Assembly (NCBI GenBank): GCA_018813765.1
Contig: JAHJBC010000009.1
Location: 124,001-188,000, forward strand
DNA: 64,000 nt
Reading direction: 5' to 3'
Origin: Gammaproteobacteria bacterium
GTDB taxonomy: Bacteria > Pseudomonadota > Gammaproteobacteria > Burkholderiales > Gallionellaceae
Shown: piece after piece, positions 8,287-49,256 of the stretch
Numbering within the stretch: the first letter of the stretch is position 1
Layout: each line of letters starts with the position of its first letter
Position numbers and translations under genes: made by a program
The notes under the pieces: model-generated
Told to the model about the DNA's origin: nothing
What the model saw: only the letters and a program-made list of their open reading frames with translations
Database searches by the model: none

Positions 8287-11187
8287 ATGATGAACAAGAA
8301 AACTGTCTTTATCAAAACGGCCAAGGGCGAGAACGAAGGCGCTAATCTCTCAGTCGATCTCAAGCGCGTCCTTTCGCTCATTGATAACAAATCGACACTG
8401 GACGAAGTGGGCAAACGGGCGCCGCCCAGTCTGCGCAATGAGCTGACCGGGATCTTCAACGAACTGGTGGTGGGCGGATTCATTCGCGACAGGGATCAAT
8501 CGACTGCCGAGCCCAAGATCAAATCACCGAAAATGTTTGTGCCCAAGGCTCCTGTCGCACATCCGGAAGCCGAACTGGATTTCACCGCCAGCACAACATC
8601 CGCATCTAGTTCCGGCACCAGCCGGAAAGAAGACATGATCGCGCGCGCGCGCGAAGAACTGGAAGCTGCAGTCGCGGCGGCCAAGGCCAAATCCAACGCC
8701 GAAGCGACAGCCAAGGCAGAAGCGAAGGCCAGGCAGGATGCGGAGCAGGCAGCAAGAGCCAGGGCTGTGGCGGAAGCCAATGCGCAGGCCGAGGCACTGG
8801 CAAGGCAGAAAGCGCAGGAAGAAGCGCAGGCCAGGGCAAAACTGGAAGCTGCCCGCATCAAGGCAGAGCAGGAAGCTGCTGCGCGTGCCAAAGCACAAGC
8901 GGATGCAATTGTCCGTGCCAAAGCCGAAACGGAAGCCAAGGTTCGTGCCGAGATCGAAACAGCAATGCGCGCAAAACAAGAGGCTGAGGCAAAAGCCAAG
9001 CGTGAAGCCGAGGAGGCGTTGAGGGCCGAACAGGCGGTAGCTGCCCGCATCAAGGCAGAGTTGGAAGCAGCGGCCAAGGCCAAGGCGGCAGCCGAAGCCG
9101 AAGCGGCGCGCGTGCGCGCTGAACTGGAAGCAGCGAAGGCCCGTGCCGAGGCAGAAGCCAGAGCCAGACAAGAAGCCGAAGCAAGAGCAAGAGCGGAAGC
9201 AGCAGCAAGGGCCAAGGCAGAAGCCGAAGCAAGAGCCAAGGCAGAAGCCGAAGCAAGAGCCAAGGCAGAAGCCGAAGCAAGAGCCAAGGCAGAAGCCGAA
9301 GCAAGAGCCAAAGCAGAAGCTGCACGTATCAAGGCAGAACAAGAAGCTGCTGCACGTGCCAAAGCGGAAGCCGAAGCAAGAGCCAAAGCAGAAGCTGCAC
9401 GTATCAAAGCAGAACAAGAAGCTGCTGCACGTGCCAAAGCGGAAGCCGAAGCAAGGGCAAGCTCGGAACAGCGTTCCCAAACTGAGATCAATGCCGAGGA
9501 CAGGGCGGCAGAGGAAGAGGCTGCGCTCTTGTTGGCCGAATACGAGAGACAGGTCACGGGAGCTGCTCCCGAGCCAGCCGTACAGGCTGCGCCGTTTCCC
9601 CGTAAGGAGCCTGAATACGAGATCAATCTGGATAAATTCCAGAATGAGCCGGAAACGATTGAGCAACCGCTGGTGCAGGAAGAACAGCCTGAAGCCCCCG
9701 AGGTCGTTCGTCCGCTAGTTGCGGCAGAGGCGGAGACAGGCCGCAAGAAAGATGCCGCCGACGAAATGTTGCGCCTCAAGGCTGAAGCGGAAGCTGCCCG
9801 GCGCAAAGCGGAAGAAGAGGCACGCAGGCTGGCGGAGGAGAAGGCGCTGGCGGAAGAGCAGGCCAAGGCATGGGCAGAGGCCGAGCAGCGTGCCCAGGTC
9901 CAGGCGCGTATAGAAGCAGATCAAGCGGCGCAGTTGGCCACTCTGGCGCAGGCCAAGGCCACGCAGAAATCGGCTCCGCGCGCGCGCCGTCAACCATTGC
10001 CATGGGGCAGGATTGTTTCCATCCTGTTCGTGTTGTCGCTGCTGGTGGCTATTGCGCTTCCCTATGTCTATCCGATGCAGGAATTCATCGCTCCGATCGA
10101 GCAGCGTCTTTCCGCGCAACTGAAACAGCCAGTGAAGATTGGTAGCATGAGTGCCGCCACTTTCCCGCCCAAACTGGAATTGAGCAACATCACGCTGGGC
10201 AAGGTGCAGGAAGTCAAGGTGGGCAGCGCGGTATTGAAGTTCGATCCGCTCACCCTGTTCTCCGAGGTCAAGGTCATCGACCGGGCCGAATTGCAGGACA
10301 TCAGCATCGACGGTACGCAACTGGACAGTCAGATCGCCAGCCTGAAAATGCTGGGCGGGGACCGGATGTACCCGGTGCGCCGACTGAGCTTGCAGAAAAT
10401 CAGGATAATCAGCGACGAGATCGCATTGCCAGTGCTGGAAGGTATCGCCGAGATCGACGATAAAGGCTCATTCAGCCGCGTAGCGCTGCACAGCGAGGAC
10501 AACAAGTACGGTATCGATCTGCAACCCCAAGAAGGCCGCTGGCAACTGGGCGTGACCCTCAAGGAGACCAGTCTGCCGCTGTTGCCGGAGATTGTCTTCA
10601 GCGATCTCAGCGTCAAGGGGGAACTGGGAGATGGCGAGGTGAACTTCTCCGAGATGGATGCCCACATCTTCAACGGCATCCTGCTGGGCAGCGCCAAATT
10701 GAAATGGAGCAAGGGCTGGCAGTTGCAGGGGCGTCTCGAGGCCAAGCTGTTCGAAGTGAAAAAGATGTTCCCGAATTATGGCGTTGAAGGCGAGATGTAC
10801 GGCGAGGGCTCGTTCTCCTTCGGTAGCGAGAAGCTTTCACAGCTTGGCGATTCGCCGCGACTGGATGCTTCCTTCACCGTGAAGCGCGGCATCGTCAGTG
10901 CCGTCGATATGGTCGAGACGGCACGGTTGTCCAGCCGCGAACATCTGGTTGGCGGACGCACCCATTTCGACGACCTGATCGGAACGGTGCAGGTGGAGAA
11001 CCACATCACCCATTTTCGCCAGATCAGGATCGTATCGGGCATGCTGAGCGCGCGGGGGACGGTTGACGTGTATCCGGACAATCGGCTGGCAGGCAATTTC
11101 AACGCCGAGATCAAGATGCGTGATGGGGAAAATATACTCACGCTGTACGGTGCCTTGGGCGAGCCGAAACTGCGCGCAGGTCGCTGA
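8287..11187 (+). CDS. Large coiled-coil membrane protein with AsmA-like periplasmic domain
   Basis: The 966-residue product has three parts. A small N-terminal cytoplasmic domain (about 1-75) resembles a winged-helix or adaptor fold (KTVFIKTAKGEN, LRNELTGIFNELV). A very long Ala/Glu/Lys/Arg helix follows (about 113-560), as in TolA. One membrane span (about 571-597, GRIVSILFVLSLLVAIALP) leads to a periplasmic domain of about 370 residues that resembles the C-terminal part of AsmA-family proteins (GEGSFSFGS). AsmA-like proteins act in envelope lipid or outer-membrane assembly. The specific role here is unknown. Start is uncertain among GTG 8281, ATG 8287 and ATG 8290, with no clear ribosome site. 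The gene is flanked by its own terminator and contains internal tandem repeats. Confidence 0.8.
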   Translation: MMNKKTVFIKTAKGENEGANLSVDLKRVLSLIDNKSTLDEVGKRAPPSLRNELTGIFNELVVGGFIRDRDQSTAEPKIKSPKMFVPKAPVAHPEAELDFTASTTSASSSGTSRKEDMIARAREELEAAVAAAKAKSNAEATAKAEAKARQDAEQAARARAVAEANAQAEALARQKAQEEAQARAKLEAARIKAEQEAAARAKAQADAIVRAKAETEAKVRAEIETAMRAKQEAEAKAKREAEEALRAEQAVAARIKAELEAAAKAKAAAEAEAARVRAELEAAKARAEAEARARQEAEARARAEAAARAKAEAEARAKAEAEARAKAEAEARAKAEAEARAKAEAARIKAEQEAAARAKAEAEARAKAEAARIKAEQEAAARAKAEAEARASSEQRSQTEINAEDRAAEEEAALLLAEYERQVTGAAPEPAVQAAPFPRKEPEYEINLDKFQNEPETIEQPLVQEEQPEAPEVVRPLVAAEAETGRKKDAADEMLRLKAEAEAARRKAEEEARRLAEEKALAEEQAKAWAEAEQRAQVQARIEADQAAQLATLAQAKATQKSAPRARRQPLPWGRIVSILFVLSLLVAIALPYVYPMQEFIAPIEQRLSAQLKQPVKIGSMSAATFPPKLELSNITLGKVQEVKVGSAVLKFDPLTLFSEVKVIDRAELQDISIDGTQLDSQIASLKMLGGDRMYPVRRLSLQKIRIISDEIALPVLEGIAEIDDKGSFSRVALHSEDNKYGIDLQPQEGRWQLGVTLKETSLPLLPEIVFSDLSVKGELGDGEVNFSEMDAHIFNGILLGSAKLKWSKGWQLQGRLEAKLFEVKKMFPNYGVEGEMYGEGSFSFGSEKLSQLGDSPRLDASFTVKRGIVSAVDMVETARLSSREHLVGGRTHFDDLIGTVQVENHITHFRQIRIVSGMLSARGTVDVYPDNRLAGNFNAEIKMRDGENILTLYGALGEPKLRAGR
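9211..9306 (+). repeat. Four tandem 24-bp coding repeats
   Basis: A 24-bp unit beginning GCCAAGGCAGAAGCC is repeated four times exactly in tandem (9211, 9235, 9259, 9283), encoding AKAEAEAR each time. Identity at the third codon positions shows recent expansion by slippage rather than only amino-acid-level selection. Confidence 0.95.
9307..9456 (+). repeat. Two tandem 75-bp coding repeats
   Basis: A 75-bp unit (9307-9381) is repeated at 9382-9456 with almost no change (AAGGC versus AAAGC). Each encodes 25 residues of the coiled coil (AKAEAARIKAEQEAAARAKA and five more). It follows directly on the 24-bp array. Confidence 0.95.
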
Positions 11188-11212
11188 GTCGTATTTCTGG
11201 GGATAAAAAAAC

Positions 11213-11245
11213 CGGCCAGATCTTTTGATCTGGCCGTTTCTTTTT
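11213..11245 (+). terminator. Intrinsic terminator of the coiled-coil/AsmA gene
   Basis: A perfect 10-bp stem CGGCCAGATC / GATCTGGCCG with loop TTTT is followed by TTTCTTTTT, 25 bases after the stop codon. Confidence 0.92.
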
Positions 11246-11271
11246 CAGGACACTTGATACTTGTTTTGCTT

Positions 11272-11487
11272 AAGCCATCGCTTTCGCCATCCGCTCAAGC
11301 GCTTTCTTGAGATTGTGGTTCCGGCGTAACCTGAAGGTTAGCCTCCACCGCAATCTCAAGCCATCGCTTTTGCCATCCGCTCAAGCGCTTTCTTGAGATT
11401 GTGGTTCCGGCATAACCTGAAGGTTAGCCTTCACCGCAATCTCAAGCCATCGCTTTTGCCATCCGCTCAAGCGCTTTCTTGAGATTG
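11272..11487 (-). repeat. 86-bp tandem array copying the 3' end of the aminotransferase gene
   Basis: Two full 86-bp units (11272-11357, 11358-11443) and a partial third (11444-11487) are nearly identical. The partial unit is the genuine 3' end of the aminotransferase gene, including its stop. Each full unit holds about 44 bp of that coding end plus a hairpin segment (GATTGTGG ... CCGCAATC around TAACCTGAAGGTTA). The outermost copy has TAA where the gene has TGA. Confidence 0.93.
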
Positions 11488-12635
11488 TCCATCGAGGTGG
11501 CGAAGGAGAGGCGCACGTAGCCTTCGCTGCCGAAAGCGGAGCCGGGCACTACGGCCACGCCGGCTTCGACCAGAAGGTATTCCGAGAACGCGAGATCGCT
11601 GCCGTCCTTGATGACACCCTTCTTGTGCAACGCGGCGATGGCCTCGCGCATGTCGGGGAAGGCATAGAACGCGCCGCCCGCCTTGATGCATTTCACGCCG
11701 GGGATCTTGTTCAGTTCGGCCACGATGAAATCATGGCGTTCGCGGAACGCCTTGACCATGGGGGTGATGCAGCCCTGGTCGCCGTTCAGTGCTGCCTCAG
11801 CCGCAACTTGGGAAATCGAAGTCGGGTTGGACGTGCTCTGCGACTGCACGTTCTCCATCGCCGTGATGATGTTCTCCGGTCCGGCCGCATAACCGATGCG
11901 CCAGCCCGTCATCGAGTAGGCCTTGGAAACGCCGTTCAGCACCATGGTCTGCGGATACAGGTCGGGGCAGGCATCCAGGATGTTGACGAACTTCTCGTCG
12001 GTCAGCGCGATATGCTCGTACATGTCATCGGTGGCGATCAGTACATCCGGATGTTTGCGCAACACCTCGCCCAGCGCCTTCAGTTCCGCCAGCGTATAGA
12101 CCGCGCCGGAAGGGTTGCTCGGGCTGTTGATCACCACCATCTTGGTCCTGGGCGTGATCGCCGCCTCAAGCTGGGCGGCCGACATCCTGAAGCCCTGTTC
12201 GATGCCCGCCTGCACTATCACCGGCTTGCCTTCCGCGATCAGCACGATATCGGGATACGACACCCAGTACGGTGCCGGGATGATCACTTCGTCGCCGGGA
12301 TTGATGACGGCCAGCGCCAGGTTGAAGAAGCTCTGCTTGCCGCCGCAGGAGACCAGAATCTGCTTGGGAGTGTAGTCCAGTCCGTTGTCGCGCTTGAACT
12401 TGGCGATGATGGCCTGCTTCAGCGACGGCGTGCCGCTGACCGGGGTGTATTTGGTGAAACCCTTGTTGATCGCGCCGATGGCAGCGTCCTTGATGTGCTG
12501 CGGGGTATCGAAATCCGGCTCTCCGGCGCCCAGCCCGATGATGTCCTTGCCTTCGGCCTTCAGTTTCGCCGCCCTGGCGGTGACGGCGAGGGTAGGGGAC
12601 GGTTTGATGGCTTGTACACGCTTGGAGAGAGACAC
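11442..12635 (-). CDS. aspC: Class I PLP-dependent aspartate aminotransferase
   Basis: This 397-residue enzyme of the AAT-I beta type (as in Thermus and rhizobia) moves the amino group of aspartate to 2-oxoglutarate. The Schiff-base lysine is Lys238 (NGVSKAYSMTGWRIGYAAG). SPSNPSGAVY, GGKQSFFN and the C-terminal RLSFATS arginine are also present. Some members act as aspartate/prephenate aminotransferases, which cannot be excluded. The gene stands alone, divergent from mtfA, and its 3' end is copied in the downstream 86-bp array. Confidence 0.92.
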   Translation of the reverse strand: MSLSKRVQAIKPSPTLAVTARAAKLKAEGKDIIGLGAGEPDFDTPQHIKDAAIGAINKGFTKYTPVSGTPSLKQAIIAKFKRDNGLDYTPKQILVSCGGKQSFFNLALAVINPGDEVIIPAPYWVSYPDIVLIAEGKPVIVQAGIEQGFRMSAAQLEAAITPRTKMVVINSPSNPSGAVYTLAELKALGEVLRKHPDVLIATDDMYEHIALTDEKFVNILDACPDLYPQTMVLNGVSKAYSMTGWRIGYAAGPENIITAMENVQSQSTSNPTSISQVAAEAALNGDQGCITPMVKAFRERHDFIVAELNKIPGVKCIKAGGAFYAFPDMREAIAALHKKGVIKDGSDLAFSEYLLVEAGVAVVPGSAFGSEGYVRLSFATSMDNLKKALERMAKAMA

Positions 12636-43904: not shown

Positions 43905-43990
43905 TTCGGCGAAGACTTACATGCGTTAGCATGTTATGTCGCAGCCAAAACTACGCTTCTGCCAGTATCAAGGAAGCGCCGATTAAGTCG

Positions 43991-44057
43991 TCACACCGGC
44001 GAAGGCCGGTGTCCAGTCGATTAATAAACACTGGATTCCGGCCTTCGCCGGAATGAC
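43991..44057. repeat. Pair of inverted REP-like palindromes
   Basis: ACACCGGC-GAAG-GCCGGTGT (43992-44011) and ATTCCGGC-CTTC-GCCGGAAT (44035-44054) lie in opposite orientation about 23 bases apart, forming a BIME-like unit. The second copy equals the palindrome at 33970-33989. The rest of the 252-base dnaB-tRNA spacer holds only the tRNA promoter. Confidence 0.85.
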
Positions 44058-44101
44058 GGTCCAATGGTTCAGGGATAACCGAAATACTCGCAATATTTCC
44101 T

Positions 44102-44143: not shown

Positions 44144-44220
44144 AGGCGCGTAGCTCAGCTGGTTAGAGCACCACCTTGACATGGTGGGGGTCGTTGGTTC
44201 GAGTCCAATCGCGCCTACCA
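44144..44220 (+). tRNA. tRNA-Val (GAC)
   Basis: This is a 77-base cloverleaf with encoded CCA. The acceptor is AGGCGCG / CGCGCCT, and the anticodon stem CCACC/GGTGG encloses TTGACAT with anticodon GAC. The T arm contains GGTTCGAGTCC. Confidence 0.97.
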
Positions 44221-44260: not shown

Positions 44261-44815
44261 ATGTTCACACTCAGTCTGCATGGAGAAGAAGGCACCCAGG
44301 CCCTGCTGCAATCGGGCTATTCGTATTGCCTCATCGTCCGTTCCGAATCCCAGCGTTCCGCCCTGCTTGAGAATCTGGGCAGCCAGCCCGGTGTGGTCAT
44401 CGTGCCGCACAACGGCGGGCTGATCAGCAACTTGCGGGTATGGGAGAACATCATCCTGCCGGTGCAGTATCATGGCATCGAGGTCGCCGGAAAACTTGAA
44501 GACAACGTGGCGCAGTTGCTCGTGCACTGCGGTCTTGAAGACGAAGCTGCGGTGTCCGAATTGCTGCTCAAACTGCCCGACCAACTGACCCTTTACGAGA
44601 AGCGTCTGGTCGGCTTCGTGCGCGCCATGTTGATGAATCCGGAGCTGATCATTTACGATTCCCTGAACGAGGGCTTGTCGCGCAAGGATTCGTTACGAGC
44701 GGTCAGATTCGACCGGGTATTCCGTTTATACTTCCCGTTCAGGACCTCGGTGCTGGTGAGTTTCGAGGAATATCGCGACAAGGACAACCCCAAACAGATC
44801 GTGATCCAGTTATAA
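44261..44815 (+). CDS. Degenerate MlaF-like ABC ATPase (probable pseudoenzyme)
   Basis: The 184-residue protein keeps the outline of the MlaF/MkL ATPase fold but lacks its catalytic residues. Where MlaF has GPSGIGKTT, this has VRSESQRSA. The Q-loop region is PHNGGLISNLRVWENI and the signature LSGGM is replaced by LTLYEK. Walker B DEP becomes YDSLNEGLS, and the switch His (VSHD) becomes VSFEE. It is shorter than MlaF (about 270 residues). It heads an operon with MlaD-like and MlaE-like genes. It could be a structural or regulatory subunit, with the true ATPase encoded elsewhere, or a decaying gene. Confidence 0.75.
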   Translation: MFTLSLHGEEGTQALLQSGYSYCLIVRSESQRSALLENLGSQPGVVIVPHNGGLISNLRVWENIILPVQYHGIEVAGKLEDNVAQLLVHCGLEDEAAVSELLLKLPDQLTLYEKRLVGFVRAMLMNPELIIYDSLNEGLSRKDSLRAVRFDRVFRLYFPFRTSVLVSFEEYRDKDNPKQIVIQL

Positions 44816-44828
44816 ACGGACGCCCGCA

Positions 44829-45776
44829 ATGAAACTGCCCAACTACAACCAGAGACTGCTGACCATGGAGAAGCGCACGCGGCGCTTCATGCTGGGTGCG
44901 GTCGCGGTCATGCTGCTGGTGCTGGTCATGATCGCCGCCAAACAGGACTATTTCAGCCGCAGTACCGCCATCTACTTCTTTACTCCGAACGCCCAGGGCT
45001 TGAGCAAGGGTATGGCGGTCAAGTTCGTCGGCTTCAAGGTGGGCAGCGTGAGGAATATCACCATGGAGCCCAACGCCACGGTGCGGGTCAAGGTCTCGCT
45101 GGACGATGAATATGTGCACCTGATCGGACAGGACGCCAAGGCGCGGTTGGTCAAGGAGGCGCTGGTCGGCGAGAGCGTGGTGGAGATCATCCCCGGCTCG
45201 CAGCAGGTGCGTCAGGTGGTGCCGGACAGTGTGCTGGAGTTCGAGCGCGGGCAGGATGCCAGCACCGTGGTCGAGAATCTGGCGGCGCAATTGCAGCCCA
45301 TCCTGAGCGACATTCGCCAGATCACCGCCTCCATCAACAACCCCGACGGCGACATCCAGCAGACGCTGAAGAACCTGAACCAGGTCACCGGGAAGCTGCG
45401 CGGTACGGTCGACGAATTCACCAGGCTGGGGGCGAGTGGCAATGAAAAGCTGGACACGGCCTACGTGAAGATCGATCGGGCGCTGGATAATGTCAATGCG
45501 GGCATGGAGGCGCTGGGGAAAGGCGTCCCGCAATTGATGGAGAAGGCCGATGCCGCGCTGGACAACGTGCAGTCGGCGACAACCGACATCAGGAAGATCA
45601 CCAGTGAATCCGCCGGAGAGATACCCTCGCTGGTGCGCAATACCAACGCGTTGGTGCAGGACGGGCAGGAGACGCTGGTTGGCGTGAAGAAATCATGGCT
45701 GTTGAACAGCCTGTTCAGCAAACCAGAAGAGCAGACGCTGCCGGTGGACGGCTACGTCGCGCCGACGCAGCCTTGA
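44829..45776 (+). CDS. MlaD-like MCE-domain substrate-binding protein
   Basis: The 315-residue protein has one N-terminal membrane helix (about 20-41), an MCE domain (about 47-130, TPNAQGLSKGMAVKFVGFKVG) and a long helical C-terminal region (about 140-290) that in this family can form a tube. MCE proteins carry phospholipids or other hydrophobic molecules across the periplasm. It lies between the degenerate ATPase and the lipoprotein gene, 13 bases from each. The C-terminal helix is longer than in E. coli MlaD. Confidence 0.88.
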   Translation: MKLPNYNQRLLTMEKRTRRFMLGAVAVMLLVLVMIAAKQDYFSRSTAIYFFTPNAQGLSKGMAVKFVGFKVGSVRNITMEPNATVRVKVSLDDEYVHLIGQDAKARLVKEALVGESVVEIIPGSQQVRQVVPDSVLEFERGQDASTVVENLAAQLQPILSDIRQITASINNPDGDIQQTLKNLNQVTGKLRGTVDEFTRLGASGNEKLDTAYVKIDRALDNVNAGMEALGKGVPQLMEKADAALDNVQSATTDIRKITSESAGEIPSLVRNTNALVQDGQETLVGVKKSWLLNSLFSKPEEQTLPVDGYVAPTQP

Positions 45777-45788
45777 CGGGAGAATAGC

Positions 45789-46583
45789 TTGGGTGCACGT
45801 TCAATCGTCTCGGTCCTGTGCAGCGTTGTGTTGCTGTCCGCCTGCGGCAGTGTGGAGGAGTTGCGCAGTGCGCGGCTGGAACAGGCCACCGAACTCAACC
45901 AGCGCGCCCAGCGCGCATTCCTGCGCGGCGAACATCAGGCTGCAGCCTCTCTTTATGAACAAGCCCTGCAGATCGACGTCGCCATCGAGAACGAGAGCGG
46001 CATCGCCATCAATACGCTCAATCTTGCCCGGGTGAACCGGAAGCTGGACAACACCGAACTGGCCGAGCGCTTGCTCGACCACCTGCTGGAAGACAAGGCC
46101 CTGATATATGCGCCGGTCCATCTGGCCGAGGCGGCGGTGCAGAAAGCCTTGCTGCGTCTGCAGGAGAACGATGTTGAAGGGGCTTCGCTGGCGGCAGACA
46201 AGGCGGTTGTCCATTGCTCCACGGATTGCAGGATATCCGGCGTGATCGACAATGTGCGCGCGGGCATCGCCCTGCGCGCGAACAATGCCGACAGGGCATT
46301 GCAGTTGAGCGAACGGGCCGCGTCGGCGAACGGCGCTGTGCCGCTCGAACATGCCAATAGCTTGCGCCTGATAGCGTCGGCCAGATTGCTGAAGAACGAG
46401 CCGGATGCCGCACTGAAGATCCTGGAACAGGCGTTGAGTATGGACAAATCGCTGGGCTTGCCGGAGAAGATCCGACAGGACCTGTTGCTGTTCGCACAGG
46501 CATACGAAAAACTGGGGCAGGCCGAACTGGCCGCGCAATATCGCGGCCGCGCGGCCCGCATCGCCGCAACCGCACTGAAGTGA
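45789..46583 (+). CDS. TPR-repeat lipoprotein of the MCE operon
   Basis: The 264-residue product has a lipoprotein signal with lipobox LSAC (Cys19), then helical TPR-like repeats through most of its length (ELNQRAQRAFLRGEHQAAA, LYEQALQID, AALKILEQALSMD). It starts at a TTG with GGGAG six bases upstream. By context it may be an outer-membrane or periplasmic partner of the MCE transporter, a place held by unrelated lipoproteins in other MCE systems (for example PqiC). I recognise no specific family. Confidence 0.78.
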   Translation: MGARSIVSVLCSVVLLSACGSVEELRSARLEQATELNQRAQRAFLRGEHQAAASLYEQALQIDVAIENESGIAINTLNLARVNRKLDNTELAERLLDHLLEDKALIYAPVHLAEAAVQKALLRLQENDVEGASLAADKAVVHCSTDCRISGVIDNVRAGIALRANNADRALQLSERAASANGAVPLEHANSLRLIASARLLKNEPDAALKILEQALSMDKSLGLPEKIRQDLLLFAQAYEKLGQAELAAQYRGRAARIAATALK

Positions 46584-46590
46584 GGCCGCG

Positions 46591-48378
46591 ATGGAACTGA
46601 TGAACCGCCTGGCAGATGCGGGATTCAGGATAAGGCTGGGTCTGTTCGTTTGCCTGGTCGTCGCTGTCCTGTTGCATGTCACTCACACGGGAGAGTGGCT
46701 GGACCGCAAGCTGCTTAACGATCAGTTCGCCCTGTTGCACAACTACGATGTGCATCCGGTGCAGAACGATGTGGTGATCGTCGGCATCGACGATGCATCT
46801 CTCAAGGCGTTCAAGGAACCGTTCGCCTTCTGGCATCCGCATCTGGGCAAGTTCCTGGAGGCGATGGCGGCGGCCAAACCGGCGGTGGTCGGGTTGGATA
46901 TTGTGCTGCCGGAGCGTTCCTACGAATTCCTGATCCCCAATTACGACTCCAGCCTGTTGCAGGGATTGCGGGCGGCGCAGGCGCAGATACCGCTGGTGCT
47001 GGCGCAGACGGTAGAAGTCAACGGCGTCTTTCGCAATGTGTATGAGCCTTTTGTAGCCGCTTCCGGCGGGGATACCCTGGGTTCGGTGCTGGTCTGCCAG
47101 GACGTTGACGGCTTCGTGCGTCGCTTCGACCCGAATATGTGCACGGTGAACGCGCAAGGTACGATGTTCGTCGACAAGATGGCTGCGCATCTGGGCAATG
47201 CGCGCAACGGGGCAGGGCTGGTGAATTTCGGTGCGGGGGAGAAATTCGAATACATCCCCTTCGTCAAGGTGCTGGAGTGGTACGAACAATCAGACAACGG
47301 GCAATTGACACGCACTTTCGGCGGAAAACCCGTGATGCTGGGCGTCGTCTCTTCGCTAAGTGAAAGAGTGAATTCACCCGTGCCGCTGGCCGCCTGGGAT
47401 CCGTTCCGGCGGCGTGCCCCCGGCGTGTTGATGCAGGCCCAGATGTTGCGCTCCATGCTGGATGGCGGCCTGATCCGCGATGCGAACCCCTATCTCGTGC
47501 TGGTGCTGACACTGGGCTCCGCATTATTCTGGTTGGGACGTATCGGCTGGCTCAAGTTGACCGCAGTGCTTGCATTCCCGCTGCTGTTGCTGGTTTTCTC
47601 CACATGGCTGCTGGGGCAGAAGGTCTTCCTGCCGACAGGCGGGATACTATTCTCCGGACTCTTCGCCTTCCTGGCCAGGCTGGCATATGACGGTGTGCAG
47701 CAGCTGCATCAGCGCAACTGGCTGCGCGGCACCTTCGGCAGTTATGTCAGCCAGGAAGTGCTGCACGAGATCATGGCGGGCAATATCCATTCCGGGCTGG
47801 ACGGGGCGCGTATTCGTCTGTGCATTCTGTTCGCCGACATCCACGGCTTCGGTGCGCGCAGCGAAGACAGACCGGCGCAGGAAGTAGTCGCTCTGCTCAA
47901 CGATTATTTCTCCGACATGACCATTGCCATCCACCAGCACAAGGGTACGGTGGACAAGTTCATCGGCGACGGCATCATGGCCTTCTTTGGCGCGCCGCAG
48001 GTGCTGGAATGCCCGGAGAAGAATGCGCTGGAGGCGGCGCAGGAGATGTTGCTGCGCCTGCGCCATGTCAATGAGCGCCTGCAGGAGAAAGGCATCGCCC
48101 CCATCGAGATCGGCATCGCGCTGCATGTGGGCGAGGTGGTCATCGGTCATATCGGTTCCGCATCTCGGCACGAATATACCGTCATCGGCGATGCGGTAAG
48201 CCTAACCGCCAAGCTGGAAGACCTGACCAAGACCTTGCATTATCCTGTGGTGTGTACAGCCGCCGTGGCAAATGCGGTAGAGCATTCCGGCGGACTGACC
48301 GATTGCGGTGAACAGAGCGTGAAAGGCAGTACGCTCCACGTCTACGGATGGAATCCGCCGCTGCTGGTTGAGAAGTGA
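46591..48378 (+). CDS. CHASE2-domain class III adenylate/guanylate cyclase with altered active site
   Basis: The 595-residue protein has an N-terminal helix (about 16-32), a periplasmic CHASE2 sensor (about 40-310), three membrane helices (about 310-375) and a class III cyclase domain (about 400-580). Metal-binding Asp416 (FADIHGF) and Asp460 (FIGDG), Lys456 and Thr530 (YTVIGD) are present. The transition-state Asn and Arg, expected four residues apart in NLAAR, are Ser537 and Lys541 (VSLTAK). The activity is therefore uncertain. It starts seven bases after the lipoprotein gene and overlaps the permease gene. Confidence 0.88.
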   Translation: MELMNRLADAGFRIRLGLFVCLVVAVLLHVTHTGEWLDRKLLNDQFALLHNYDVHPVQNDVVIVGIDDASLKAFKEPFAFWHPHLGKFLEAMAAAKPAVVGLDIVLPERSYEFLIPNYDSSLLQGLRAAQAQIPLVLAQTVEVNGVFRNVYEPFVAASGGDTLGSVLVCQDVDGFVRRFDPNMCTVNAQGTMFVDKMAAHLGNARNGAGLVNFGAGEKFEYIPFVKVLEWYEQSDNGQLTRTFGGKPVMLGVVSSLSERVNSPVPLAAWDPFRRRAPGVLMQAQMLRSMLDGGLIRDANPYLVLVLTLGSALFWLGRIGWLKLTAVLAFPLLLLVFSTWLLGQKVFLPTGGILFSGLFAFLARLAYDGVQQLHQRNWLRGTFGSYVSQEVLHEIMAGNIHSGLDGARIRLCILFADIHGFGARSEDRPAQEVVALLNDYFSDMTIAIHQHKGTVDKFIGDGIMAFFGAPQVLECPEKNALEAAQEMLLRLRHVNERLQEKGIAPIEIGIALHVGEVVIGHIGSASRHEYTVIGDAVSLTAKLEDLTKTLHYPVVCTAAVANAVEHSGGLTDCGEQSVKGSTLHVYGWNPPLLVEK

Positions 48379-49160
48379 TGACCGCGTACTGGCCCAGATT
48401 CCTCGCCTGGCTGAAGATGACGCAGATGCGCCAGACCGTGTATGGCGCGCTGCAACTGCTTTGGTATGCCTTCACCCATTTGCGCGTGCTGCGCATCGCC
48501 CCCGTCAACGCCGTATTCCATCGCCAGATATTCTTCACCGGCGTCGAAGCCCTGGGCATCGTTGCCGTGTTCGGTCTGTTGAGCGGCGCGCTGGTCATCA
48601 CCCAGATCACCTCGTTGGTCGGCGGCGACAGCGAACTGACGGTAAAGATCCTGATCTGGACCGTGGTGCGCGAAGTCGGTCCGCTGTTCGCCGCCATCAT
48701 CATCATCGCGCGCAGCAGCGCCGCCATCGCCTCCGAACTGGCGCTGATGAAGACGCGCGGCGAAATGAGCAGCCTGACCCGCATGGGCATCCCGCCGCAG
48801 GATTACCTGCTGGTGCCGCGCATTTTTGGCGTGACGCTGGCGGTTCTCGCGCTCACCATCTATTTCCAGGTCGTCGCCATTGGCGGCGGGCTGGCGATCA
48901 GCGCCATGTTCCAGAACGTCGCCTATCTCGACCAGGTCGGGCGCTTCCTGCAGACCGTCAAACTGGCCGAATTTGCCGTGGTCGCCTTCAAAGGCTGCCT
49001 GTTCGGCTTCGCCATCTCCACCATCTCCTGCTACAACGGCATGCGGGCGCAGCCTTCGGTGACCGAGGTACCCAAGGTCGCCATCAAGGCCGTGTTGCAA
49101 AGCCTGTTGTTCGTTTTTACGCTGGACGCGCTGATCGCCTGGTTCGGCATGACGGAGTGA
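48378..49160 (+). CDS. MlaE-family ABC permease
   Basis: The 260-residue inner-membrane permease of the MCE/Mla family has about five helices, with the conserved LVREVGP-like segment (VVREVGPLFAAIIIIARSSA), the EF-helix region ELALMKTRGEMSSLTRMGI that normally contacts the ATPase, and SCYNGMRA near the C-terminus. The ATG at 48378 overlaps the cyclase stop (TGATG). It completes the operon's transporter core with the MCE protein, though no intact ATPase is encoded here. Confidence 0.92.
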   Translation: MTAYWPRFLAWLKMTQMRQTVYGALQLLWYAFTHLRVLRIAPVNAVFHRQIFFTGVEALGIVAVFGLLSGALVITQITSLVGGDSELTVKILIWTVVREVGPLFAAIIIIARSSAAIASELALMKTRGEMSSLTRMGIPPQDYLLVPRIFGVTLAVLALTIYFQVVAIGGGLAISAMFQNVAYLDQVGRFLQTVKLAEFAVVAFKGCLFGFAISTISCYNGMRAQPSVTEVPKVAIKAVLQSLLFVFTLDALIAWFGMTE

Positions 49161-49173: not shown

Positions 49174-49216
49174 GCGCGCCGCTTGGCGCAAAGGTGTGTC
49201 GAGCCGGAATTTGAAG

Positions 49217-49241
49217 TGCGGCGATCGCCGCATTTGTTTTT
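49217..49241 (+). terminator. Terminator hairpin in the thrS leader
   Basis: A 16-bp perfect palindrome (TGCGGC, loop GATC, GCCGCA) is followed by TTTGTTTTT and lies 15 bases before the thrS ATG. It either ends the MCE operon transcript or acts as an attenuator on transcripts from the proposed promoter at 49168. Confidence 0.75.
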
Positions 49242-49256
49242 AGCAGAGTGGAAGAA

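Follow-up and report, generated by a model that had tools for sequence, protein, structure and literature searches.

The stretch of DNA analysed here (the window) comprises 64,000 nucleotides of contig JAHJBC010000009.1 from a gammaproteobacterial assembly (GCA_018813765.1), the nearest named relatives of which are Sideroxydans/Sideroxyarcus and other Gallionellaceae or Nitrosomonadales metagenome-assembled genomes (MAGs). Positions 44261-49160 are occupied by five open reading frames (ORFs), all on the plus strand, with spacers of 13, 12 and 7 bases followed by a 4-base overlap. They encode an MCE system that consists of an MlaE-type permease, an MCE protein, a tetratricopeptide repeat (TPR) lipoprotein, a CHASE2-cyclase and an MlaF-like nucleotide-binding domain (NBD) protein that has lost its catalytic motifs, hereafter the pseudo-NBD (Table 1). 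An earlier note on this DNA had described five tightly spaced genes with a cyclase between the MCE side and the permease; all of these ORFs are present, and the Pfam names agree (MlaD, 3.9e-15; TPR_12, 9.1e-10; CHASE2, 8.7e-25, with Guanylate_cyc, 1.8e-19; MlaE, 8.9e-48). The permease scores 163.1 bits against PF02405 (cut-off 22.5) and the MCE protein beside it 56.3 bits against PF02470 (cut-off 25.1). MlaB, MlaC and MlaA are not among the five genes of the operon, as judged by a Pfam search of these five and dnaB.

Table 1. Features of the pseudo-NBD locus and its upstream flank (positions in the window)
Feature	Positions	Strand	Evidence
tRNA-Val (GAC), next gene upstream, outside the system	44144..44220	+	
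Pseudo-NBD, MlaF-like ATP-binding-cassette protein, 184 aa, catalytic motifs lost	44261..44815	+	Pfam, PDB sequence match, alignment, AF2, Foldseek
Codons for N-L-R-V-W-E-N-I-I-L-P, pseudo-NBD residues 57-67; most conserved motif of the family, just past the former Q-loop	44429..44461	+	Alignments
MCE (MlaD-type) protein, 315 aa: N-terminal helix, one MCE barrel, long helical C-terminal part	44829..45776	+	Pfam, AF2
TPR lipoprotein, 264 aa, lipobox LLSAC followed by Gly	45789..46583	+	Pfam, lipobox script
CHASE2 sensor and class III nucleotide cyclase, 595 aa	46591..48378	+	Pfam, residue alignment
MlaE-type permease, 261 aa, of the branch accompanying pseudo-NBDs	48375..49160	+	Pfam, permease trees
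Permease codons 121-149 (E-L-x-x-M ... Y-L-x-x-P-R), conserved stretch	48735..48821	+	Invariant residues in permease alignment

The pseudo-NBD scores 17.2 bits against Pfam ABC_tran, below the cut-off of 25, and 14 bits against the MlaF model NF008809, for which the cut-off is 441; its best sequence matches in the PDB are MlaF chains. When it is aligned with the MlaF of its own genome, a gap covers the Walker A positions, the Q-loop Gln is replaced by H, the signature GG by L-Y, the Walker B Glu by S and the switch His by F, in agreement with the losses listed in the earlier note. The Walker B Asp is the sole catalytic position retained among those checked. In the source genus, about 27 residues between the P-loop and the Q-loop are also gone, and the protein ends shortly past the switch region; relatives in other phyla are longer in the P-loop/Q-loop and C-terminal parts. 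The AlphaFold2 (AF2) model, built from 59 aligned sequences, has a predicted local distance difference test score (pLDDT) of 91.5 and a predicted template-modelling (TM) score of 0.89, and its top Foldseek match in the PDB is the Acinetobacter MlaF (E 7.7e-10; TM 0.76 when normalized by query length, 0.55 by that of the target). The loss of the motifs, combined with the MlaF-like predicted fold, indicates that the body of an MlaF-type NBD has been kept without its chemistry: the NBD fold of the ABC transporters is there, the catalytic motifs are not.

These losses are conserved, as the earlier note had proposed to check. In a motif census of 125 loci with 116 distinct NBDs, none has the Q-loop Gln and none the signature Gly-Gly; a full Walker A is found in one (L234), the Walker B Asp-Glu pair in two (L100 and L234) and the switch His in six. 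Conservation is instead seen just after the former Q-loop, where the alignment of the 14 sequences from the whole-protein search has seven invariant residues; the same motif is conserved in a larger NBD alignment, most rows of which, however, were fetched by that motif. We take this region to be the one with which an NBD grips the permease, not ATP. Likewise, we assign the conserved stretch of the permease (codons 121-149) to the coupling-helix region. In MlaE, the coupling helix between transmembrane helices 2 and 3 meets MlaF, according to the available part of PMC7790496.

Selection on the operon was estimated as the Nei-Gojobori ratio of nonsynonymous to synonymous substitution rates (dN/dS) in 13 pairs of relatives, some of which share a genome and are not independent; the frames of the relatives were taken from stop to stop, such that some pairs include codons before the start (199 or 201 NBD codons compared to 184). 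The ratio is 0.046-0.141 for the pseudo-NBD in all 13 pairs, 0.045-0.159 for the MCE protein, 0.031-0.170 for MlaE, 0.106-0.267 for the TPR protein (one pair saturated) and, in 12 pairs, 0.081-0.235 for the cyclase. The pseudo-NBD has the lowest value of the operon in 7 of the 13 pairs, with MlaE, MCE or cyclase lower in the other six. The constraint on the pseudo-NBD is thus about equal to that on the permease and the MCE protein. The possibility that the NBD, and then the whole operon, is a decaying remnant can be dismissed: the motifs are lost and the protein is shortened in the source genus, but the low dN/dS in 13/13 pairs, the conservation across phyla and the confident predicted fold rule it out. 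The earlier note had listed as signs of simple decay a gene order found in this genome only, with relaxed selection on the ATPase gene, or close relatives that have an intact orthologue; what we find is low dN/dS, relatives with the same gene order and no close relative with intact motifs.

The system is widespread. Within the taxonomic order of the source genome, the window pseudo-NBD was first used to search 200 genomes, after which a profile built from 14 sequences was run against 399. The profile line of 70 bits was chosen by us at a gap in the scores (74 to 59 bits); although 388 of the 399 genomes have a match at E <= 1e-6, those under 70 bits, which were not read singly, look like ordinary ABC proteins. 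Matches above 70 bits occur in 30 of the 399 genomes, the source genome included. The 29 further loci comprise 13 from the search with the window protein (15 matches were fetched whole, two of which, L054 and L055, are ordinary intact NBDs and were dropped) and 16 more from the profile. All 30 loci were read, and all contain MlaE, NBD, MCE and TPR genes together.

Beyond the order, a scan of named genomes yielded 106 relatives, of which 80 were kept. Retrieval of these 80 loci relied on the peptide pattern [IV][SNA]NL[RK][VTI]WEN, with a query that contained dead NBDs only, so that this motif is conserved among them by construction; the searches of the order and the permease-side search described below are less biased. 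By their NCBI phylum labels, which mostly belong to MAGs, the loci fall into Pseudomonadota (40), Nitrospirota (21), Thermodesulfobacteriota (13), Myxococcota (3) and Nitrospinota (1), with two unassigned; the Nitrospinota permease is near-identical to those of Nitrospirota, and hence the label could result from misbinning. Cultured bearers include Chitiniphilus shinanonensis (L133) and Trichlorobacter thiogenes (L135). The complete set of four core genes is found in 66 of the 80, and 7 of the 14 incomplete loci end inside or near the operon at contig ends (L062, L066, L078, L080, L104, L110, L128). A permease of the pseudo-type lies on a separate contig in L109, L113, L118, L135 and L136 (the genome of L113 being judged by the PF02405 score alone). 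The core, then, is MlaE, dead NBD, MCE protein and TPR lipoprotein, and it recurs in Pseudomonadota, Nitrospirota and Thermodesulfobacteriota. A script detects the lipobox pattern in 59 of the 76 TPR proteins of the relatives; from the Gly after the lipobox Cys, we presume sorting to the outer membrane under the +2 rule.

The most frequent gene order is MlaE-NBD-MCE-TPR (43/80 loci). The order of the window, which the earlier note had suggested seeking in related genomes, is found as the same relative order, NBD-MCE-TPR-cyclase-MlaE, in 17 of the 80. One of the 17, the betaproteobacterial L079 (10383-13968), has two extra genes with signal-like starts that flank the in-operon cyclase; one gives a sub-cut-off match to DUF4384, and the other has no Pfam match.

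The permeases of these loci form a branch of their own. In a first tree, 64 permeases from pseudo-NBD loci separate cleanly from 21 that accompany intact-type NBDs, with a Shimodaira-Hasegawa-like approximate likelihood ratio test (SH-aLRT) value of 100. A search from the permease side covered 299 genomes of the phylum, 95 of which had a match; the best 30 loci, which were read, comprise the window, the half-degenerate L205, 14 loci of the family f76, whose pseudo-NBD is of a second and more diverged kind, and 14 loci with intact NBDs. L205 and L234 come from one genome, in which the NBD has Walker A, Walker B and His and has lost the Q-loop and signature. The full core is present in all six of the outlying loci that were fetched from these permease-side kinds. 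A second tree of 89 rows, from which 14 near-copies were dropped and to which 8 of the 14 f76 and 9 of the 14 intact permease-side loci were added, places 59 permeases (50 pseudo, 8 f76 and L205) on one side and 30 on the other, with an SH-aLRT of 99. L205 branches first, with a weak support of 82, and its grouping with the 50 is not rejected by the approximately unbiased test (p-AU 0.80). Both trees are quick and have long branches. Their simplest reading would be a single old transporter class in which the catalysis of the NBD was lost early, and L234 is possibly a half-way state of that loss.

In contrast to the core, the cyclase comes and goes. The enzyme of the window has both metal-binding Asp and the substrate Lys/Asp, whereas the transition-state Asn and Arg, roles that we assign on general grounds, are replaced by Ser and Lys; L064 keeps the Asn, L058 the Arg and L079 both. 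Among the 21 named loci closest to the window (L058-L078), 18 have a cyclase, L062 is cut, and L073 and L074 are without one. Five of the cyclases (L068-L072) have lost both metal Asp and are of full length with an intact frame and a dN/dS of 0.15-0.18, which marks them as a conserved pseudo-cyclase that is still under purifying selection. Here, the cyclase seems to be turning into a pseudoenzyme beside a pseudo-ATPase. Over the 80 loci, a cyclase is seen in 26, and the remaining 54, some of them cut by contig ends, show none. On these counts, the cyclase had to be abandoned as a part of the core, contrary to the earlier note, which had treated it as embedded in the system.

Links to signalling, which the earlier note had also suggested, nevertheless recur as cyclic-nucleotide neighbours in other phyla. 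For the 59 named loci outside the source genus, CHASE2 genes were counted in 39 genomes: in 10 of the 39, a CHASE2-cyclase gene lies no more than about 6 kb from the permease or core (L079, L080, L089, L090, L099, L100, L107, L110 and, beside the split permeases, the genomes of L135 and L136), compared to 0.43 expected given the sizes of the genomes and their numbers of CHASE2 genes. In L089, L090 and L099, it is encoded on the opposite strand. The ten cases represent perhaps three or four lineages, and the Poisson probability of three or more is 0.009.

In 14 Geobacter-like genomes, so named or assigned by similarity, a gene of the metallo-beta-lactamase fold that scores above the cut-off of PF02112, the family of class II cAMP phosphodiesterases, adjoins the permease in 10. 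In these 10, it is the only PF02112 match of the genome at E <= 1e-5; the match lies elsewhere in three of the 14 genomes, and one has none. In four of four Nitrospirota genomes, the PF02112 match is elsewhere than beside the permease. The phosphodiesterase-like gene stays with the permease even when the pseudo-NBD is on a separate contig (L240-L243). Its nearest PDB sequence is yeast PDE1, Lactamase_B_2 scores as well as or better than PF02112, and NCBIfam gives only sub-cut-off matches to RNase Z and phosphodiesterase, so the enzymatic identity that these matches suggest is not certain. In some Geobacter-like genomes (L240-L243; L109, L118, L135, L136), the permease and this neighbour are split from the NBD-MCE-TPR genes.

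Other genes that may be linked to cyclic nucleotides were observed in Nitrospirota. In 8 of the 21 loci, a YihY/BrkB inner-membrane protein fused to a cyclic nucleotide monophosphate (cNMP)-binding domain lies beside the core (L089, at 10339-11559, overlapping the TPR gene, L083, L085, L094, L097, L098, L099 and L111; Pfam run on four of the eight). In five, a Crp-type gene is divergent from MlaE (L082, 6253-6960; L083, 177-968; L085, L088 and L089; Pfam run on two of the five); these may be Fnr-like rather than cAMP sensors.

Among the known MCE systems, PqiABC has PqiA, not an ABC permease, as its inner-membrane part and includes no pseudo-NBD. LetAB (YebST) likewise has LetA in this place and is not known to include a pseudo-NBD. 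The Mla system (MlaFEDB of Escherichia coli and Acinetobacter) shares with the system described here the MlaE-type permease, the MCE protein and the MlaF-fold NBD. However, in the available text of PMC10665443, Mla is composed of an active MlaF, MlaB, a short MlaD, MlaC and MlaA, whereas here the NBD is dead, the MCE protein is long, a TPR lipoprotein is present, and MlaB, MlaC and MlaA are all missing from the five genes. The chimeric Mla-Pqi system Mpc of Brucella, to go by the accessible portion of PMC12436622, is similar in its permease, the long helical end of its MCE protein, its outer-membrane lipoprotein and its bridge layout (here a prediction), but its ATPase is homologous to MlaF, its permease carries a STAS domain and the place of the TPR protein is taken by a PqiC-type lipoprotein. 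The minimal MlaEFD of Veillonella likewise combines an inner-membrane core with an elongated MCE protein, but MlaF is present, MlaD ends in an outer-membrane barrel, and there is no MlaA-type lipoprotein, again following the accessible part of PMC10665443; the survey in that paper detected MlaF by synteny only, and the same part makes no mention of dead NBDs. The mycobacterial Mce1 and Mce4 are alike in that their permeases have no active ATPase of their own in the operon, but differ in that a shared active ATPase, MceG, was shown and no pseudo-NBD gene is mentioned in the accessible text of PMC9947336. Heterodimeric ABC transporters with one degenerate site, as far as the partial descriptions at hand go, have likewise lost NBD catalytic residues, but keep one working site, whereas this operon encodes no intact NBD.

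Thus, going by these partly available sources, each of the compared MCE systems has its own MlaF-type ATPase (Mla, Mpc, Veillonella MlaEFD), shares one (MceG) or has no ABC parts (Pqi); a conserved dead NBD beside MlaE is described in none of them. LetAB, too, is not known to have ABC parts. In the open-access literature, we found no paper on an MCE protein with CHASE2, an MCE system in which MlaE goes with a pseudo-subunit or a CHASE2 adenylate cyclase in lipid transport, and, among the papers listed, judged by title and the start of the abstract, none on an MlaE system with a conserved dead NBD.

We infer that the loci represent an old and widespread class of MCE bridge. Its four components would be the MlaE-type permease, the pseudo-NBD, an MCE protein that forms a single ring and extends into a long helical needle, and the TPR lipoprotein in the outer membrane. 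An MCE hexamer would sit on the permease dimer, and its needle would span the periplasm to the TPR lipoprotein and form a lipid bridge. In the AF2 monomer of the MCE protein (mean pLDDT 62.9), the N-terminal helix and the barrel are confident and the C-terminal part is low, such that the needle is deduced from helix content and from other systems. The pseudo-NBD would dock in the place of MlaF under the coupling helices of the permease and, with no normal binding and hydrolysis of ATP, would serve as a structural or regulatory clamp, the flow of lipids being gated by conformation or signal. Some lineages add a CHASE2 adenylate cyclase, a phosphodiesterase-like hydrolase or a cNMP-binding YihY protein, which suggests that in those lineages a cyclic-nucleotide signal bears on when the bridge opens, how much of it there is or where it lies. 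Taken as a whole, a distinct MCE bridge with a pseudo-ATPase adaptor, in which lipid flow is independent of ATP hydrolysis at this subunit, is the explanation that we favour, by a modest degree of confidence.

Several observations weigh against this explanation. The outlier L234 keeps Walker A, Walker B and the switch His, so ATP binding appears to be retained in at least one branch. An MlaF-like NBD is encoded elsewhere in all 69 of the bearing genomes checked. Regarding the signalling part, parts of the source genus lack the cyclase or have a dead one, and 33 of the 37 genomes of the order and phylum sets have, by coordinates, no CHASE2 gene beside the core (the four that do are all in the source genus); hence, cyclic-nucleotide control cannot be general.

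The main rival is a borrowed ATPase, whereby an MlaF encoded elsewhere would drive the permease, either as an exchanging MlaF dimer or as an MlaF/pseudo-NBD heterodimer, much as Mce1 and Mce4 share MceG, the precedent in the available text of PMC9947336. An MlaF-like NBD is indeed found in 30/30 bearers of the order (E <= 1e-55), and in 39/39 other bearers one (E <= 1e-40) adjoins another MlaE, by coordinates and without the motifs being read singly; MlaF is present, however, in 15/15 genomes without the system as well, so that its presence in all the bearers neither proves nor excludes borrowing. Furthermore, 21 of the 30 bearers have a single MlaF at E <= 1e-55, whereas 6 of the 15 non-bearers have two or three. 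L234 retains the parts of its own site (Walker A, Walker B, His) and not the signature, which is given to the partner, the pattern expected if an intact partner supplied the signature. Yet, with the signature Gly-Gly absent from all 116 pseudo-NBDs, the site of MlaF itself would face a dead partner. Because Q-loop and signature are lost throughout, even a heterodimer with MlaF would achieve at most odd chemistry, and we therefore prefer flow independent of ATP hydrolysis, with borrowing a possible but rather unlikely alternative.

Two further MlaF-like genes are present in the source genome, in which the earlier note had proposed to look for an intact MlaF. One gene lies in a row with MlaE and MCE genes (C7:86561, C7:87490); the other is an orphan beside which no MlaE or MCE gene was found (C8:122463-123251; about 7494-8264 in L057). 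The orphan keeps Walker A, signature and Walker B, with the switch His replaced by Tyr (VVTYD); second MlaF-like copies are present in some other genomes of the family. As a dedicated partner, the orphan was rejected: a single MlaF accompanies the system in G071 and G154, both of the same genus, and two occur in G115, G190 and G281, which lack the system (the second copy of G190 contains a stop). Hence, of the suggestion in the earlier note that the system borrows another ATPase, the general idea survives, whereas the obvious candidate does not track the system. A reading frame upstream of the orphan specifies a small protein (about 100 aa), the start of which is signal-like.

Alternatively, the locus could encode a signalling complex on a transporter scaffold, with the permease and MCE protein sensing the state of lipids or the envelope and informing the CHASE2-cyclase, with little or no transport. 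The location of the cyclase within the operon in the source genus, L079 and L080, and beside the core or permease in other phyla, is compatible with this idea; however, loci with a dead cyclase (L068-L072) or none (L073, L074) still conserve permease, MCE protein and lipoprotein, and most of the 80 loci show no cyclase, which makes such a complex improbable.

The explanation that we favour, the bridge with a pseudo-ATPase adaptor, can be extended to the claim that this whole permease class gave up ATP for good, the ATPase subunit having become a non-catalytic gate once or twice, long ago, and the conduit being opened by signals (cyclic nucleotides in some lineages) rather than pumped. This extension is tentative, and we consider it more doubtful than the bridge itself. 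The system bears on how and in which direction lipids cross the bacterial envelope and on what energizes MCE bridges. As a natural MlaE machine that has no working ATPase of its own, and in which the catalysis of the motor was removed and its body kept in several groups, it separates the structural role of MlaF from the catalytic one. As far as the open-access literature searched shows, the cyclic-nucleotide genes that recur beside it would give a first indication that an MCE system can be under the control of a second messenger.

Downstream of the permease gene, a terminator-like site (49214-49235, plus strand) precedes a thrS-like ORF at 49248; the other two such sites found sit within the cyclase gene. 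Upstream, between dnaB and tRNA-Val, a palindromic, GC-rich repeat that resembles repetitive extragenic palindromic (REP) elements (CCGGCGAAGGCCGG ... CCGGCCTTCGCCGG) lies at about 43989-44059.

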